Shown piece by piece: positions 2,998 to 10,305 of a stretch of DNA of 48,022 nt (positions within the stretch are counted from its first letter, which is position 1; each line of letters begins with the position of its first letter). The DNA is from Microcystis elabens FACHB-917 (GTDB taxonomy: Bacteria; Cyanobacteriota; Cyanobacteriia; PCC-6307; Cyanobiaceae). Location of the stretch: the NCBI RefSeq assembly GCF_014698445.1, contig NZ_JACJSZ010000023.1, positions 1 through 48,022 on the forward strand, given 5' to 3'. A model generated the notes under the pieces. That model was not told the DNA's origin. It did no database searches and saw only the letters and a program-made list of their open reading frames with translations. The translations under genes were made by a program, and so were the position numbers.

Positions 2998-4441
2998 ATG
3001 GCTGACCCGACAGCTTTGTCGGCTCCGGCACACCTGAAAACCCCAGGCTCCCGCTGGCTTCAGCCTGTCCTGACAGGCCTGCTGATCCTGTTCTGCCTGG
3101 CGATGGCGGGCAGGGGCCTGGGAAACCCCTACTCCTACTGGTCCGACGAGATCTGGTCGGTGGGCGCCAGCAGCACCGGCTGGGGTGGGCTGATGCGGGA
3201 CTGGCTGATCCCAGACACCCACCCGCCCCCTACCAGATCCTGCTCAAGCTCTGGATCGGGATCTTCGGCAACGGGGTACCCGCCACCCGCAGCCTCAGCT
3301 TCCTGATCGCGGCCCTCGGCCTGGTTGTCGCCGCCTGGTGCAGTTCAGGGCGAGGGGCCAGACGGCGTCTGGCCACAGTGGCCTTCCTGGGCACCAGCCC
3401 CTCCTTTCTCTTCTATGCCCAGGAAGCGCGCAGTTACGCCCTCTCCCTGACGCTCTCGACCCTGATGCTGGGCACCGCCCTGCTCCTTCGCCTGCGGACG
3501 GCAGGTCGCGAGAGCGACCTGCGCTGGGGGTTCCGGCTCGCCTGTGTGCTGCTGTCGCTGACGCACTACTTCTCGCTGCTGTTCTTGCTGGTGGTGCTGG
3601 CGGTGAGCGCCGCCGACGGACAGGTGCTTCGCCGCCGCTGGGAGGCGGCCGTTCTGGGGGTGATGCTGCTGCTGCCGCCCCTGGGCCATGCGCTGGCCAG
3701 CCCGATCGTCAACAAGCCCGACCGGGCCAGCTGGATCGAGGTGAAGCCGATCGTCGGCACCCTGGAGCAGTTCAGCCGCGGCCTGCTTCCCGTGCCGGAC
3801 CTGCGCCAGGGACAGCTGGCACCCCTGGACCTGATCAGCCTGGCTGTGGCGGTCTGCTGCGCCTTCGGCTCGGCCGGAGCCCTGCGCCGCTTCCTGATGG
3901 CGCCATCCCAGCAGCTGCCGGCAGCCCAGGGCGAGGCCCGTTTCCTGCTGCTGGTGATCGATCCGATCAAGCCGTTGAGCCAGGCGCGCTACCTCATCGT
4001 GGTGCTGCCCGCCGTGCCCTCGCCGTTCTGCTGGTGAGCGTACTTCTGCTGCAGCTGCGGATCGGCCTGAGGCTGCTGGCGGAGGAACAGGCGCCCCTGG
4101 TGAACTATCGGGCCATGGCGACCTTCGTCAACGGCACCGTTCTCTGCGCAGGCGGCTGCTGGAGCACCGGCTGGCGCGCCGACGCCCTCATGGGCACCTA
4201 TTTCCGAGCCGGCCAGCTGCGGGATCTCGAGGAGCGCGACCCAGCCGGCATCGCCCCCCAGCGGCAGCCGCTGCTGGCGTTCCACGGCAACAGGACGACG
4301 ATGAGGACTCTGGGTACCGCCCACCCGGAGATAACCAGCTGGGAAGCGCCGGGAACCTGGCGGTCAGCTCCGTTCATCCTGCTGCCCCGCACCAGCCCGG
4401 CGCAGCCGTCACGCCACGGCCTGCGCCCCTGTCCCCCTTGA
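2998..4441 (+). pseudogene. GT39-like polytopic membrane glycosyltransferase, broken by two frameshifts
   Basis: Three consecutive open frames together read as one polytopic protein. The first part (from ATG 2998) has a membrane segment and then YSYWSDEIWS, the Asp-Glu region typical of GT39/ArnT-like transferases. At the C run near 3225-3230 the reading passes into a second frame (YQILLKLWIGIFG and later FYAQEARSYAL, several membrane helices, PLSQARYLIVVLPAV). Near 4015 it passes again into a third frame (LLVSVLLLQLRIGLRLL to the stop at 4439-4441). Each switch is what a one-base deletion would give. The family would normally move a sugar from a polyprenyl phosphate donor outside the membrane. 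Both shifts sit in C-rich sequence, so sequencing error remains possible, but two in one gene favours a decayed gene. Confidence 0.75.
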
Positions 4442-4487
4442 CGTGGGGGGGGTCGATCTCGCATAAGGGTTCTTTGGGACGTGGGCC

Positions 4488-5450
4488 ATGGTGTCCCCCT
4501 CAGCCCCGCTCGCCGCCCTCAGGGGCCGCGATCTGCTCTCCTCGGCGGACCTCGACGGTCACCAGACCCTGGCCCTGCTGGAGCTGGCCCGCCAGCTGAA
4601 GAGCGGCGAGCGCCGCTTCGACCTGGCTGGCCGGGTGCTCGGGCTGATCTTCTCCAAGGCCTCCACCCGCACCCGGGTGAGCTTCATCGTCGCCATGGCG
4701 CGGCTGGGCGGCCAGACGATCGACCTCAACCCGGCCGTCACCCAGGTGGGCCGGGGCGAGCCGATCGCCGACACCGCCCGGGTGCTGAGCCGCTACTGCG
4801 ATGCCCTGGCGATCCGCACCTTCGCCCAGGAGGACCTGGTCGACTACGCCCACTGGGCCTCGATCCCGGTGATCAACGCCCTCACCGACCTGGAGCACCC
4901 CTGCCAGGCCCTGGCCGACGCCCTGACGATCCAGGAGCGCTTCGGCCATGGCCCCACCGAGCTGCACGGCCTCACCCTGGCCTACGTGGGCGACGGCAAC
5001 AACATGGCCCACTCGCTGATGCTGGTGGGGGCCCTGTTGGGGATGGACGTGCGCCTCGGCTGCCCCGACGGCTTCACCCCCAGCCCGGCGGTGGTGGAGC
5101 AGGCCCGGTCCCTCGCCGGCGGGCGCAGCGCGATCACGGTGCTGCAGGACCCGGTGGCGACGGCCCGGGGGGCCCACGTGCTTTACACCGACGTGTGGGC
5201 GTCGATGGGCCAGGAGGAGGAGCAGGCCCAGCGGGAGCAGGCCTTCACCGGCTGGTGCCTGGATGAAGACCTGCTGGCCGAGGCCGATCCGCGGGCGATC
5301 GTGCTGCATTGCCTGCCGGCCCACCGGGGTGAGGAGATCAGCGCCGGTGTGATCGAGGGGAGCGCCAGCCGGGTGTTCGACCAGGCGGAGAACCGCCTGC
5401 ACGTGCAGCAGGCCCTGCTCGCCACCCTGCTGGGGGGTGTCAGCGACTGA
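4488..5450 (+). CDS. argF: ornithine carbamoyltransferase
   Basis: A 320-residue enzyme that joins carbamoyl phosphate and ornithine to give citrulline in arginine synthesis, in the cytoplasm. The carbamoyl phosphate loop STRTR is at 59-63, HPCQ at 137-140, the DVWASMG segment at 235-241 and the ornithine/catalytic HCLPAHRG at 274-281. Length is normal for the family. ATG at 4488 begins the only sensible start; the gene stands about 45 bases after the broken glycosyltransferase and is followed closely by lexA on the same strand. The presence of the SMG loop and HCLP motif separates it from aspartate carbamoyltransferase. Confidence 0.96.
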   Translation: MVSPSAPLAALRGRDLLSSADLDGHQTLALLELARQLKSGERRFDLAGRVLGLIFSKASTRTRVSFIVAMARLGGQTIDLNPAVTQVGRGEPIADTARVLSRYCDALAIRTFAQEDLVDYAHWASIPVINALTDLEHPCQALADALTIQERFGHGPTELHGLTLAYVGDGNNMAHSLMLVGALLGMDVRLGCPDGFTPSPAVVEQARSLAGGRSAITVLQDPVATARGAHVLYTDVWASMGQEEEQAQREQAFTGWCLDEDLLAEADPRAIVLHCLPAHRGEEISAGVIEGSASRVFDQAENRLHVQQALLATLLGGVSD

Positions 5451-5515
5451 GCGCGCCAACGACGGGCGCAGACCCGGCTCTGGACAAAGCGCCCGTGGGA
5501 TGGCAGAAAGGGAGT

Positions 5516-5529
5516 GGTTCATCCGTACT
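5516..5529 (-). promoter_or_regulatory. possible cyanobacterial LexA (SOS) box
   Basis: On the minus strand this reads AGTACGGATGAACC, which agrees at 13 of 14 positions with the cyanobacterial LexA box RGTACNNNDGTWCB as I recall it. It lies four bases before the GTG at 5534, where an autoregulatory site of lexA would be expected. If the upstream ATG at 5495 were the true start the box would lie inside the gene. One match in GC-rich sequence can occur by chance. Confidence 0.4.
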
Positions 5530-5533
5530 GCCC

Positions 5534-6148
5534 GTGGTTGCCACCCACCAGGACCTCACCGAAGCCCAGCGGGAGCTCTACGACTGGCTCGCCGACTACA
5601 TCGGCCACCACCGCCACAGCCCTTCGATCCGCCAGATGATGGAGGCGATGGGCCTGCGCTCCCCGGCGCCGATCCAGAGCCGCCTGCGCCACCTGCAGCA
5701 GAAGGGCTGGATCACCTGGCAGGAGGGGCAGGCCCGCACGCTGCAGCTGCTCGGCGAGAGCCGCCCGGGCATCCCGGTGCTGGGGGCCGTGGCCGCCGGC
5801 GGCCTGGTGGAAACCTTCGACGACGTGCAGGAGCACCTTGATCTGGCCCCGGTGCTCGACACCCGCGGCCTGTTCGCCCTCACCGTCAACGGCGACTCGA
5901 TGGTGGACGCCCACATCGCCGACGGCGACGTGGTGCTGATGGAGCCGGTGGCCGACCCCTCCCGGCTGCGGGAGGGCACGATCGTGAGTGCCCTGGTGCC
6001 CGGCAGCGGCACCACCCTCAAGCACTTCCACCGCCAGGGGGCCCAGGTGCGGCTGGAGGCCGCCAATCCCGCCTACGCGCCGCTCCTGCTGCCCGCCGAC
6101 CAGGTGAGCGTTCAGGGCCGCCTGGTGGCGGTCTGGCGTCAGGTCTGA
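5534..6148 (+). CDS. lexA: LexA transcriptional repressor
   Basis: About 204 residues. LexA represses SOS genes and cuts itself when RecA is activated; in cyanobacteria it also has reported non-SOS roles. The N-terminal winged helix (ELYDWLADYI, SPSIRQMMEAMG, SPAPIQSRLRHL) is followed by a probable cleavage site at Ala88-Gly89 in VAAGG, the catalytic Ser122 in NGDSMVD and Lys163 in TLKHFHR (counted from GTG 5534). An ATG in frame at 5495 would add 13 residues. I prefer the GTG because family members begin a few residues before LTEAQRELYDWL and because of the box just upstream; no clear Shine-Dalgarno settles it. The downstream neighbour is tRNA-Ala. Confidence 0.93.
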   Translation: MVATHQDLTEAQRELYDWLADYIGHHRHSPSIRQMMEAMGLRSPAPIQSRLRHLQQKGWITWQEGQARTLQLLGESRPGIPVLGAVAAGGLVETFDDVQEHLDLAPVLDTRGLFALTVNGDSMVDAHIADGDVVLMEPVADPSRLREGTIVSALVPGSGTTLKHFHRQGAQVRLEAANPAYAPLLLPADQVSVQGRLVAVWRQV

Positions 6149-6176
6149 AGGGACCGGGCCCGCACCCCCCACGTTG

Positions 6177-6182
6177 TAAACT
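6177..6182 (+). promoter_or_regulatory. possible -10 element of tRNA-Ala
   Basis: TAAACT preceded by TG two bases upstream region (TTGTAAACT) lies about 31 bases before the mature tRNA, a usual distance for a -10 box. No convincing -35 element is seen. Confidence 0.3.
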
Positions 6183-6212
6183 CCTCAAGCACCGGATCAC
6201 CGGCGCACCAAT

Positions 6213-6285
6213 GGGGCCATAGCTCAGCTGGTAGAGCACCTGCATGGCATGCAGGGGGTCAGCGGTTCGAGTCCGCTTGGCTCCA
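6213..6285 (+). tRNA. tRNA-Ala(GGC)
   Basis: A 73-base cloverleaf. The acceptor arm GGGGCCA pairs with TGGCTCC (one G-U pair), the D arm contains AGCTCAGCTGGTAGAGC, the anticodon stem CCTGC/GCAGG encloses a seven-base loop ATGGCAT with anticodon GGC, and the T arm contains GGTTCGAGTCC. The discriminator base is A; CCA is not encoded. Anticodon GGC reads GCC/GCU alanine codons, which are heavily used in this GC-rich genome. It is the boundary between the lexA side and the accessory region. Confidence 0.97.
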
Positions 6286-6293
6286 TCCCGTCA

Positions 6294-6487: not shown

Positions 6488-7549
6488 TCAGGCGAGTGAC
6501 CACGCGATGGCATTGCACTGCGCCTCAAGCTGGCTGATCCGCTCCAGCAACTCGGCGAAGCTCGGGATCTCGCCTCGCAGCATCCCCGAGTCGGTCATGG
6601 CCTGAAAATCCGCCTCCAGGGCCTGCCGGGCTTCATCGGTCGGCACCAGCTGCAGGTTGCGGCTGAGGGCGTGGAGGTAGTCGATGGGCTGCTCATCGGC
6701 ATCCCTGGCACGCCAGAAATCCTCCTTGTGCTGGGCCACCTCCTCGCAGAGGGGGCGGTCTCGAACGGCGGCCTCCGCGATACCTGCCTGGGCCAGGCGA
6801 TCGAGGTCGTACCAGTGCCGCGAGTAGCGGTCACCCTCGCCGCTGCCCCAGCGGCCCTTCCGGCATGAAACATGGATCGCCGCGGCCTTCTCCAGGAACG
6901 TGCGCTTCGGGTCCATCACCAGTGGCCTGGCCGTCGGAAAGTCGAGCATGGCCAGGTGGGTCGCCGCCTCGCAGGTGATGGGCATCAGCCCATGGGGTTG
7001 ACCGGTGGAATGAGCACCGAACTCCAGCAGCACCGTGGGCCTGACATAGCCATGGGTGCCTTCAGGGGCCCGGATCAGCGGTGGGTAGCGGAGAACGATG
7101 GTGGTCGGCAGCCGGCGCCCTGGTTCCGTCGCTTGCAGTGTCAGCTCCACCGGCTGGCCGGTGGCCACGACAGCCCCCTGAAGCAGCGGCAGGGGCATCT
7201 CCTGGACCCACTGCCTGAGCCTCCTGTCGGCCGTTCTGCGGCGCTTGTCGGCCTGGCTTGGATTGGCGGCGGGCGCCAGGACAACCTCCGGCCAGAGGCG
7301 CTGAATGTTCAGCGTGAGGTCGACGTCCTCCGAAAAGCGATCGATGAGCCCATGGGCCTTGGAGAGCGAGGTGCCGCCCTTGAAGGTGAGGCTCTGCAGG
7401 AGCTGCTGGTCTGTCCCAAGGATCTGCAGCGCCCAGACCACCCAGATGTCCTTCTCCAGCAGGTAGGCAGGCCAGCCGGATTCGGCCGCAGCCACCGCCA
7501 GGGCTTCCTTTTGGTCCTCTGCGGAAAGAGCGAACCAGACCTCAGCCAC
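6488..7549 (-). CDS. abiEii: AbiEii-type nucleotidyltransferase toxin
   Basis: A 353-residue protein of the AbiEii/AbiGii toxin family (DUF1814), DNA polymerase beta-like nucleotidyltransferases whose studied members block growth by adding nucleotides to targets such as tRNA ends. The first catalytic motif FKGGTSLSK is at 57-64 with the metal-binding acidic pair in SEDVDL at 73-78; the later family motif RHWYDLDRL is at 244-252. The gene overlaps the last 8 bases of the upstream antitoxin gene, the usual arrangement for AbiE. Such systems are type IV toxin-antitoxins that can act as abortive-infection phage defence. The reading frame is full length and all visible motifs are kept, so it appears functional. 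Confidence 0.9.
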   Translation of the reverse strand: MAEVWFALSAEDQKEALAVAAAESGWPAYLLEKDIWVVWALQILGTDQQLLQSLTFKGGTSLSKAHGLIDRFSEDVDLTLNIQRLWPEVVLAPAANPSQADKRRRTADRRLRQWVQEMPLPLLQGAVVATGQPVELTLQATEPGRRLPTTIVLRYPPLIRAPEGTHGYVRPTVLLEFGAHSTGQPHGLMPITCEAATHLAMLDFPTARPLVMDPKRTFLEKAAAIHVSCRKGRWGSGEGDRYSRHWYDLDRLAQAGIAEAAVRDRPLCEEVAQHKEDFWRARDADEQPIDYLHALSRNLQLVPTDEARQALEADFQAMTDSGMLRGEIPSFAELLERISQLEAQCNAIAWSLA

Positions 7550-8228
7550 GAACCTCCAGAGACTGCTGATCTTGTTCGTTGAGCAGCTCCGCCAGCCACA
7601 AGGGCAGCTCAGCGCTGACGGAAAGCAGAGCCTCCCACTCCTGAGGAGGCAGCACGGTTCGGAGTTGCGGCAGGGCTGCTGAGGCCTGATCTGGGCCGAG
7701 CCAGGTCAGGGCGCGGATCGCCTGGCCGGCAGGGCGATCGGCCAGCAGGAAGTTCCAGGCGGCTGCAGGGCGGATGGTGACCTGCTGCCTGCCGAAGACG
7801 TAGCGCTTCTGAGTCCTGGTGCGGGCCAGGAAGGTCTGCTCCACGGGCATCTGGGTGGTGAGGCCCAGGGCATTGGCCGCAGCGGCGCCGCTGCTGACTA
7901 ACTGCTGAGCACCCTCCTCATTGAGCTGGGCGATCACCACCTCCGGCGCCGGAGGTCTTGTCCCGAAGCGGCTGCTGATGGGCAGGGCGTAGCGGCCGCG
8001 GGTGATCTTCACGAGTTGGCCGCGGGCCGCCAGGCGGCGCAGGGCCTGGTCCACTGCATCGCGCTTGCCGAACGCCAGGAACTGCTTGGCCGCCAGCAGG
8101 GATCCCTCCGGGCGCTTGCAGGCAGCTTCCAGGATCCGCTCGCTCAGCACGGCCTTCTCGCTGGGAACAGCCCTCTTGCTGGGAACAGCCCTCTTGCTGG
8201 GAACAGCCCTCTTGTTGGGAACAGCCAT
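7542..8228 (-). CDS. abiEi: AbiEi-type antitoxin with a repetitive N-terminus
   Basis: A 228-residue protein ahead of, and overlapping, the toxin gene. Residues about 30-80 form a winged helix (DAVDQALRRLAARGQLVKITRGRYAL), followed by a C-terminal region characteristic of AbiEi/DUF6088 antitoxins. Characterised AbiEi proteins bind inverted repeats in their own promoter and neutralise AbiEii. The first 30 residues are odd: RAVPSK or close variants repeated about four times, coded by an exact 18-base tandem repeat. The ATG at 8228 is preceded by GGAGG 12 bases upstream. Because no other Met lies before the helix domain the repeat must be translated if this start is used. Confidence 0.85.
   Translation of the reverse strand: MAVPNKRAVPSKRAVPSKRAVPSEKAVLSERILEAACKRPEGSLLAAKQFLAFGKRDAVDQALRRLAARGQLVKITRGRYALPISSRFGTRPPAPEVVIAQLNEEGAQQLVSSGAAAANALGLTTQMPVEQTFLARTRTQKRYVFGRQQVTIRPAAAWNFLLADRPAGQAIRALTWLGPDQASAALPQLRTVLPPQEWEALLSVSAELPLWLAELLNEQDQQSLEVRG
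8161..8226. repeat. 18-base in-frame tandem repeat in the antitoxin gene
   Basis: The unit CTGGGAACAGCCCTCTTG stands exactly three times in a row (8161-8178, 8179-8196, 8197-8214) with a partial fourth unit at 8215-8226. A more diverged unit may precede it at 8143-8160. Each unit adds six residues, so changes in copy number keep the frame. Confidence 0.95.
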
Positions 8229-8288: not shown

Positions 8289-8766
8289 CTCTGTCCACAA
8301 AGCCCTTGCCATCGCGGCCGAAACGACCGGTGCTCATGGCTGCGCTGACGACTCGCTTCGGTCGACGGCGGCCGTCCTCCGCTCCGGGGCCGGTGATGGG
8401 GGTGGTGGGCTGAGCTGCTCTCCCGCGGCTGCGGTGGCGCGGCAGCTTTCAGCCGGGAGGGGCCTGGAGTGAAGCCAGGGGGGTATGCGCGCGAATGCAC
8501 GGCCGGATGTTCATTCCAGCCTGAATGGGGGCCTTCCTTCGATCACCTGCCGAGCCGCAAGCGCATGGCGCTGCTTTGCATAGATCCAATGCTGTGCAAC
8601 GGTCCTGCCTGCTCAACAGTTCATTGATGCTGATAAAATACGGACTGCGCCAAAGGCCCCGAGCCCATCGCCTGCGGCAACGTCATCCCCTGATCTCGCC
8701 ATCATTGCCGTGCTCTCACCAGCGGCATGATGCCCCGGTCAGTTGTCCCTCAAGGCAGCTGATTCC
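8289..8766. other. stretch with no gene recognised
   Basis: Between the AbiE promoter and the DUF2493 gene I find no frame with convincing protein character on either strand. Short open frames exist (a 24-codon minus-strand one ending in the operator and a few on the plus strand) but none matches a family I know. TGATAAAAT at 8631-8639 could be an extended -10 element for the downstream gene. Confidence 0.5.
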
Positions 8767-9291
8767 ATGGTTTTTTGTCATTCACCCGGGCCAGATTCAG
8801 GCCCTGCCCGCTCGCTTGTGATCGCAGCCGGCGGCGGCCGTGATCTGGCCTGGCCCCACCAGCGGGTCGCCGCTGAGCTGCTCGCCCGCAGCGGCGGCCG
8901 GCCGGTCCAGCGGCTGTTCCATGGCGGAGCCCGCGGCGCCGATGCCGCCATCGCCCGCGCCGCCCATCAGCTGGGCTGGTCGGCCATCGCTCTGCCTGCC
9001 GCATGGGAGCGCCATGGCCGGGCGGCCGGGCCGATTCGCAATCGGGAGCTGCTGGAGCGAGCCATCGCCGAGGCCCTGGCCCACACCTCACCGGTGCTGG
9101 CCACCTCCGTGCTGGTGCTCGCCTTCCCCGGCGGCACCGGCACCGCATCGCTGGTGCAGCAGGCCCGCCGCATGGCCTCCCGCTCACCCGTGCCGCTCGC
9201 CGTGGTGGAGGTCAGCCCGTCCGCCGGTCTCTGGGCCGTGCCCACTGCCGTCGCACCGATCTGTGCGCCTTGCCGATCCGCCTGCTCCTGA
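8767..9291 (+). CDS. DUF2493 / SLOG superfamily protein (YspA-like)
   Basis: About 174 residues. The DUF2493 pattern is clear: a first strand LVIAAGGGRDL, then HGGARGADAAIARAA at 52-66, LPAAWERHGRAAGPIRN ending at 92, and LAFPGGTGT at 118-126. This is a Rossmann-like SLOG domain, thought to bind nucleotides or nucleotide-derived ligands; relatives occur in phages, plasmids and defence or stress islands. The exact ligand is unknown. ATG 8767 gives a start about 16 residues before the first strand; an in-frame TTG at 8743 is less likely. It lies alone between the AbiE pair and phage-gene debris, in keeping with mobile origin. Confidence 0.82.
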   Translation: MVFCHSPGPDSGPARSLVIAAGGGRDLAWPHQRVAAELLARSGGRPVQRLFHGGARGADAAIARAAHQLGWSAIALPAAWERHGRAAGPIRNRELLERAIAEALAHTSPVLATSVLVLAFPGGTGTASLVQQARRMASRSPVPLAVVEVSPSAGLWAVPTAVAPICAPCRSACS

Positions 9292-9340
9292 AGCCTTCCG
9301 CGCCCATGGGCGCCCGCCGATCCATTTCCCACGCACCGCC

Positions 9341-9727
9341 ATGCCTGTTCTCACCCCCGTGCCCATCGATCTCTCCTCCCCCCGTGAGGCTGCCCCCTAC
9401 AGGGCCCACAGGGCCGGTCTGCTCGCTGCAGCGATCTGGTTCCCTCTGGCAGCTGGGCATCGAGGCCCAGGAACTCACCACCGCCATCGGCCTGCTCGCT
9501 GAGCAACTGGAGGCTGACGACGAGCACGCCCGCGCCCAGGCGCTCGCCGAGCTCGAGGCGGCCCTCCTTGCCGAGGAAGGCAACAGGAAAGCCCTCGCCG
9601 CCAAGGCCGATGCCACCTGCTGGGTGATCGAGCACCTGCGCGGCCAGGCCGCCTACCGCCAGCAGCAGGCCAAGCGCCTCACCGAGCTGTCGCGCTCCGA
9701 TGCCGGCCGGGCCGATGCGCTGGAGGG
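9341..9727 (+). pseudogene. Gp157-like phage protein remnant, frameshifted and truncated
   Basis: ATG 9341 opens a frame (MPVLTPVPIDLSSPREAAP) that must move by one base near 9390-9440 to reach LWQLGIEAQELTTAI and the following helical part LEAALLAEEGNRKAL, KADATCWVIEHLRGQ and QAKRLTELSRSDAG. The latter resembles the N-terminal helical half of siphovirus Gp157 family proteins, which are linked to phage resistance or recombination functions in Streptococcus phages. After RADALE at about 9727 the sequence turns abruptly into antisense abiEii, so the C-terminal half is missing. Decay is well supported; the Gp157 name is moderately supported. Confidence 0.5.
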
Positions 9728-9856
9728 GGCGGTCACGAATGGCCGCCTCCGCGATACCGGCACGGGCCCGGCGATCAAGGTGATATCAGTGCCGTGAATA
9801 GCGCTCGCCCTTGCGGCTGCCCCAGCGCCCCCGCCTGCAGGCGACATGGATGGCCA
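9728..9856 (-). pseudogene. fragment of a second abiEii-like toxin gene
   Basis: Read on the minus strand this codes AIHVACRRGRWGS, then RKGERYSRH, a TGA stop, then YHLDRRARAGIAEAAIRDRPL. It lines up residue for residue with positions 224-267 of the intact AbiEii in this window, the stop replacing the Trp of RHWYDLDRL (TGG to TGA). DNA similarity to 6750-6870 is also plain by eye, but with many differences, so it is an old or separately acquired homologue, not a recent copy. It joins the Gp157-like remnant on one side and a perfect palindrome on the other. Confidence 0.85.
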
Positions 9857-9888
9857 TCCTGACGGTCGCTGCGACCGTCAGGATGGCC
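9852..9888. repeat. perfect 17-base inverted repeat with 3-base loop
   Basis: GGCCATCCTGACGGTCG at 9852-9868 is followed after CTG by its exact reverse complement at 9872-9888. No T run follows, so it is not a standard terminator. It begins where homology to abiEii ends and overlaps the ATG at 9883 of the next possible gene. Confidence 0.9.
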
Positions 9889-10305
9889 GGATCCCCTGCC
9901 CGTTTCCCCTTGATCACCCGCTCCCCCCGGGCCCCATGGCGGGGACATCGGGCCGCCGGCTTCGCGGCAGGCCTGGCGCTTCTCAGCGTCCAGGCTGTCG
10001 TCCCGTCCATCGGCCGGGCGCAGGGGATCGCGGAACCGGACAGCGGCTCCCTTGCACCCATCGATCGCGAGGTCTTCCGGCAGCAGTACGGCCAGGAAAG
10101 CCTGTTCCGGCTGCGGCTGGGGGTGGAGGCGGCCGATCAGCCGGCCAAGGCCGGCGTCGGCACCGCTCCCCAGGCCTGTCCTGCCGCCAGCTGGGCCGGC
10201 TCGCCGCAGAAACAGCGCTACGACAAGGCCCTGAGCGAGCGGAAGTACTTCGCCGCCGGTGAGGCCCTGGGGGAATGGCGGCGATTCTGCCCCGCCAGGC
10301 CCTGA
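9883..10305 (+). CDS. hypothetical exported protein
   Basis: About 140 residues, family not recognised. From ATG 9883 there is a charged start with several Arg, then a hydrophobic stretch AAGFAAGLALLSVQAVV and a possible signal peptidase site near GRAQG, so export is likely. The mature part is hydrophilic with two Cys (one in QACPAASW, one in RRFCPARP) and a helix-like KQRYDKALSERKYFAAGEAL. The start codon lies inside the right arm of a perfect palindrome, so translation could be affected by that hairpin, or the true start may be elsewhere. Codon pattern fits coding sequence better than the antisense frame. Confidence 0.5.
   Translation: MAGSPARFPLITRSPRAPWRGHRAAGFAAGLALLSVQAVVPSIGRAQGIAEPDSGSLAPIDREVFRQQYGQESLFRLRLGVEAADQPAKAGVGTAPQACPAASWAGSPQKQRYDKALSERKYFAAGEALGEWRRFCPARP

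Follow-up and report, generated by a model that had tools for sequence, protein, structure and literature searches.

A remnant of a second abiEii lineage at a tRNA-Ala island of Microcystis elabens FACHB-917

Results

The window, by which we mean the whole stretch of DNA analysed, comprises 48,022 nt of contig NZ_JACJSZ010000023.1 (assembly GCF_014698445.1) from the freshwater picocyanobacterium Microcystis elabens FACHB-917, whose genome is available as 121 contigs; all coordinates given below are window positions. A tRNA-Ala(GGC) gene detected by ARAGORN (6212..6288, plus strand) stands behind lexA and, by comparison with empty sites, is the landing site and left border of an island. Beyond it lies an intact abiE operon on the minus strand, composed of a toxin gene, abiEii (6488..7549, 353 aa; PF08843, E 1.1e-29; PADLOC AbiEii, E 4.6e-91), and an antitoxin gene, abiEi (7542..8228, 228 aa; PF19570 (DUF6088), E 4.5e-18; PADLOC AbiEi, E 1.6e-51; 19.6 bits against PF13338 (AbiEi_4), under its cut-off of 25), which overlap by 8 bp. 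This resident pair (6488-8228), recognised by the Pfam and PADLOC models of AbiEii and the PADLOC model of AbiEi, is organized like the AbiE type IV toxin-antitoxin system as presented by Dy et al. (2014, PMC3985639). Short repeats (AVPSKRAVPSKRAVPSEK) occupy the N-terminal end of abiEi (about 8150-8228) and apparently differ from those of relatives, G018 and G034 among them. The operon is followed on the plus strand by a YspA/YpsA-like SLOG (YAcAr) gene (8743..9291; PF10686, E 1.1e-6) and by the remnant of a Gp157-like gene (9341..9726); next come a fragment of a second abiEii on the minus strand (9723..9855), hereafter the fossil, and the native right flank (9870..10305, plus strand), which carries a 140-aa open frame from 9883 with no Pfam match.

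Comparisons were made with a genus set of 42 genomes and a family set of 400, both including the genome under study. Metagenome bins are among the genomes compared, and G023 may be mixed, since it has two lexA/tRNA loci.

The fossil aligned by blastn with positions 6749-6881 of the intact abiEii over 133 bp, ungapped and at 81.2% identity (E 2.1e-31), a value that excludes chance similarity. A protein search with abiEii that covered all 42 genus genomes (E 1e-5 or better) placed, in the genome under study, residues 223-267 at 9723-9857 of the minus strand at 76% identity (E 4e-17), with a single TGA inside, and tblastn on the window placed residues 224-267 at 9854-9723. The initial annotation, made from the letters alone, had described about 43 codons matching residues 224-267 and a stop in place of the Trp of RHWYDL; we count 44 codons, and the stop is indeed there, as a TGA at 9786..9788 (minus strand, codon 9788-9786). 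The minus-strand translation reads AIHVACRRGRWGSRKGERYSRH, the stop, then YHLDRRARAGIAEAAIRDRPL. Homology extends to 15 abiEii genes (PF08843), to which the fossil is 75-92% identical over 126-133 bp, again ungapped.

In the alignment with these 15 genes, six changes are private to the fossil, one silent and five that are either nonsense (W to stop) or missense (G to R, E to K, D to H, L to R). All five altering changes fall on residues that are identical in all 15 genes, the resident one included, which shows decay after function had been lost. An intact AbiEii frame with nucleotidyltransferase motifs I and II is absent: codons 224-267 alone remain, with the TGA and four missense changes, and the two motifs, which are N-terminal in AbiEii as described in PMC3985639, lie outside the fossil. 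The same source reports that a D192A change in motif IV (+DxxD) abolished toxicity; RHWYD, which we infer to be the equivalent of that motif, contains both the TGA and the D to H change of the fossil. The best reading is that the fossil does nothing and is functionless debris.

A DNA search of the genome with 9700-9900 (E up to 0.001) returned the segment itself, the resident abiEii and its own inverted repeat, and no further copy. Within the window tblastn found no further abiEii piece of a second system, nor is there a second abiEi, the abiEi proteins of the window, of G269 and of G063 matching the resident abiEi alone. An abiEi gene adjoins abiEii in the resident pair and not at the fossil.

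Among the best two candidates of each of the 400 family genomes, those closest to the fossil are in G019 (92%), G269, which belongs to another genus (90%), G063 (89%) and G024 (86%). The resident copy (81%) belongs to a group at 80-82% that comes next, followed by three genes at 75-78%. A tree was calculated on 133 columns from the fossil and the 15 abiEii genes, of which that of G019 is truncated and that of G217 has a TAG outside the compared stretch; a sixteenth gene, from G001 (60% at the protein level), gave no DNA match and was left out. The fossil grouped with G019, with a modest ultrafast bootstrap of 81 on these 133 columns. Forcing it to be sister to the resident gene was rejected (AU p 0.002, KH 0.003, SH 0.006). 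Its inclusion in the clade of the resident gene, G031 and G033 was rejected weakly, as the AU test gave p 0.040 and neither KH (0.069) nor SH (0.146) rejects it. The fossil differs from the resident copy at 25 positions, and 17 of these 25 differences are common to the fossil and G019. The G019 relative is a truncated abiEii (residues 124-353) about 1.9 kb from the tRNA, and sits beside the same lexA/tRNA-Ala pair. These comparisons support the view that the fossil is a decayed abiEii of a lineage other than that of the copy 3 kb away, in agreement with the initial annotation, which had held the two to be too different for a recent duplication.

The resident operon itself shows a mosaic pattern. 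Over 6488-8154, 199 informative sites were counted, 96 following G014, G023, G060 and G201 and 103 following G031 and G033, after 17 further sites that fit neither group had been dropped. These sites form 59 runs. In 10,000 shuffles, which assume independent sites, the mean was 100.3 and the minimum 72; the test does not single out the recombinant among the three parties. With this caveat, the pattern suggests recombination among the AbiE lineages of this group, independently of the fossil. The lineage of G014, G023, G060 and G201 is one that resides at tRNA-Ala.

On its left side, the fossil meets a gene that is broken twice. The Gp157-like piece (9351-9797) aligned with positions 4-80 of the 162 of the Siphovirus Gp157 profile (PF05565) at 21.9 bits, under the cut-off of 28.6, whereas an intact relative in G060 fits nearly the whole length (positions 4-161, 84 bits) and is followed by a Rad52-family gene; the window copy, in contrast, is truncated and frameshifted. 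Between 9341 and 9440, a length difference of one base puts its start out of frame with its body, so that the gene was broken independently of the cut. The cut itself is seen by comparison with eight related loci, in which the gene extends beyond the equivalent of 9726: six reach a common C-terminal end, one (L048, in G019) ends earlier, and in one (L060, in G010) the contig ends first. The order abiE, YAcAr, Gp157-like is identical in G060, G023, G024, G063 and G269. Several genomes of the genus, for example G020, G024, G029 and G063, hold several copies of the Gp157-like gene (window 8330-9726).

The alignments of the Gp157-like gene and of abiEii overlap by the four bases GAGG (9723..9726), so the piece is joined directly to the cut gene, as first described. 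When 9300-10000 was searched against 60 genomes, including that of FACHB-917, Gp157-like DNA matches ended at 9726 (query position 427) or earlier and fossil matches began at query position 424 or later. Four weak matches cross 9726: G014:C45 (71%, to 9734), G013:C17 (to 9730), G033:C112 (to 9728) and G006:C39 (9699-9772, 74%, E 0.006), the last two being near chance level. In the family survey, matches of G013, G301 and G324 passed 9726 by 4-7 bases. The joint was found in none of the 41 other genus genomes (best 13 candidates of each) and in none of the 399 other family genomes (best two of each), and no identical arrangement was thus seen elsewhere. The earlier description of the two genes as fused stands to the extent that two broken genes abut at a 4-bp microhomology; nothing indicates a new gene.

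The right joint, at the border between fossil and native flank, carries a perfect inverted repeat (9852..9888) with 18-bp arms (9852-9869 and 9871-9888) and one base between them. The start codon of the flank frame falls within the right arm, which resembles the sequence at the equivalent place in empty sites; the left arm is therefore probably an inverted copy of the right one. The sequence GGATGGCC is present both at 9848-9855 and at 9881-9888. RNA of 9840-9920 is predicted to fold at -43.5 kcal/mol (z -5.7 versus shuffles). The predicted stem includes the point where the 140-aa frame starts, and may possibly lower translation of that frame.

The limits of the island were drawn from DNA matches to genomes with a near-empty site. 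The right flank follows the lexA/tRNA side after only 93 bp in G007, 104 bp in G005 and 89 bp in G025. In the same order, the left side matched from 4016, 4009 and 4331 to 6286, and the right side from 9867, 9875 and 9859. Because the two borders are 89-104 bp apart in these three genomes, 6289 to about 9869 is an island of defence genes at the tRNA-Ala(GGC) beside lexA, and the fossil its right edge.

The site was then placed in the genus. We located lexA in 40 of the 42 genomes, that of FACHB-917 included, and tRNA-Ala(GGC) within the stretch behind it in 39 of 39 other genomes. Both borders are on one contig in ten genomes; the interval is 0.09-0.18 kb in four of them (G007, G005, G025, G008) and 2.9-45.8 kb in the other six (G002, G024, G022, G017, G012, G064). 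A repeat of the tRNA 3' half precedes the right flank by about 0.1 kb in three genomes (G022, G012, G064) and by about 2 kb in G017. In G014, two such repeats follow each other behind an intact abiE (L150, G014:C28, 3007-3052 and 10966-11014 of the oriented locus); tandem accretion therefore occurs at the tRNA-Ala site, where G014 apparently has islands in tandem. Between 5400 and 11000, the window has no repeat of the tRNA 3' end besides the tRNA itself: the right end of its island and the native intergenic DNA are lost. No integrase was recognised by Pfam among the four main frames of the island. G060 presents at the same tRNA, in order, abiEii, abiEi, YAcAr, the Gp157-like gene and the Rad52-family gene; farther along come a DUF499/HmaC-like ATPase, a DUF7680 protein and a GmrSD_N-domain protein. 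The window corresponds to the first part of this arrangement, and its island would once have had the rest.

Beside tRNA-Ala, a complete abiEii was seen in 3 of the 39 other genus genomes (G014, G023, G060) and fragments only in 6 (G009, G015, G018, G019, G033, G034). None was seen in the remaining 30, in stretches of at most about 12 kb, many of which end with their contig; four of the 30 (G004, G036, G035, G032) reach less than 0.7 kb past the tRNA and carry little weight. Nowhere in the stretches examined in the 39 genomes is there a tandem pair of abiE copies. The genomes whose lexA region is nearest to that of the window have no abiE at this site, so that a longer AbiE history in this lineage is not directly seen. 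The idea that the toxin is lost first and the antitoxin kept is unsupported by the six decayed loci: G034 alone has abiEi in one piece (residues 5-228); the gene is broken in G018 and G033, runs off the contig in G015, and was not detected at the loci of G009 and G019. The abiEii piece of G034 (residues 237-257) is too short for assignment to a lineage. Elsewhere abiE lies near tRNA-Met at L114 (G122), L052 (G031) and L051 (G033), and near tRNA-Arg at L118 (G217), so that more than one tRNA adjoins abiE of the same family.

Discussion

The fossil represents a second abiEii lineage, and most likely derives from an older element that was displaced from the tRNA by a later insertion and then eroded. 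We give a probability of roughly 60% to its being what is left of an older AbiE element that occupied the same integration site, distal to the present island. An AbiE toxin-antitoxin element would first have stood downstream of lexA and tRNA-Ala(GGC). Insertion at the 3' end of the tRNA is expected to push earlier elements away from it, and the younger abiE/YAcAr/Gp157 island would in this manner have come to adjoin the tRNA, with the older element on its distal side. The latter would since have been worn down to 44 toxin codons between the island and the native flank. Two breaks would account for its borders: one that joined the cut Gp157-like gene to abiEii through the 4-bp microhomology, and another that took away the remainder of the older element, together with the native intergenic DNA and any attachment repeat on the right, leaving the 18-bp fold-back copy of the flank. 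The truncated G019 gene, 92% identical and at the same lexA/tRNA-Ala pair, speaks for a former resident; the mere 133 bp left, and the absence from the window of a second abiEi and of a right tRNA repeat, speak against it. Consequently, of the proposal in the initial annotation that two AbiE systems have been at this site over time, the second lineage holds, whereas a whole second system, of which 44 codons and no abiEi are left, is likely only.

The main competitor, which we consider distinctly less probable, is that the fossil is filler DNA, a stray piece of an abiEii near the G019/G269 lineage, either foreign or present only transiently, that was copied or ligated into the broken island end during its repair, with no second system ever resident. 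Such a capture would leave the same picture. The fossil is short, lies between two microhomologies (GAGG and GGATGGCC) and adjoins a fold-back repeat, as template-switch repair can leave, and neither another part of a second system in the window nor another DNA match to the stretch in the genome accompanies it. However, its orientation is that of the resident gene, as expected of a tandem element, abiEii fragments lie beside tRNA-Ala in six of the 39 other genus genomes, and private changes concentrated at otherwise invariant residues indicate decay after loss of function.

It is rather improbable that the fossil came in together with the YAcAr/Gp157 island, joined beforehand to its right end. 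It does adjoin that module directly, at the Gp157-like gene, and three nearer relatives (G063, G024, G269) have abiE loci linked to the same module, but no other copy was seen in which the module runs on into abiEii: DNA matches stop at about 9726, and those that cross it are weak. Descent by duplication from the resident abiEii, as the shared genome, the shared orientation and the 81% identity might suggest, is very improbable in view of the differences common to G019, and the tree tests reject it. A functional chimeric gene is just as improbable: the frame 9003-9797 is open for 264 codons across the joint from a far upstream start, but the Gp157-like body does not share the frame of its start and lacks the C-terminal part of the family, and no second example exists among the best candidates of 41 genus and 399 family genomes, which also disposes of a conserved chimera.

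There is also a broader and more tentative proposal, to which we give less than even odds. The lexA/tRNA-Ala(GGC) site of Cyanobium-like picocyanobacteria might be a long-lived AbiE arena, where repeated arrivals form mosaics and a newcomer makes the older system dispensable, so that its toxin erodes. Replacement could perhaps come about if the newer antitoxin also neutralised the older toxin; the absence of cross-talk among three AbiE systems of one Serratia strain, as stated in PMC7725324, counts against this.

The locus recalls the defence islands described at integration hotspots (PMC10121019, PMC10250203), as far as these accounts present variable sets of defence genes between conserved borders, for which G060 is comparable. 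It differs from them in the small size of the island, in the loss of the right end and in the remnant that stems from a second lineage of one and the same system. An AbiEii gene receives mention on a coastal Synechococcus scaffold (PMC10696648). Titles and abstract beginnings yielded no account of this site or of a dead AbiE beside a tRNA in picocyanobacteria, although one may have been published elsewhere.

Conclusions

As a rule, the turnover of defence systems is deduced from their presence or absence in different strains. Here, one genome retains the trace of a second lineage beside an intact AbiE, at a mapped site that is empty, occupied or decayed in its relatives. The fossil alone does not change our understanding of AbiE, and is a good small example of defence turnover, otherwise ordinary. 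It offers a small testable case of replacement within a family, including the question of whether the antitoxins of one lineage silence the toxins of another. If the lexA/tRNA-Ala(GGC) site is truly an AbiE arena, the fossil would be direct evidence of replacement inside one defence family.
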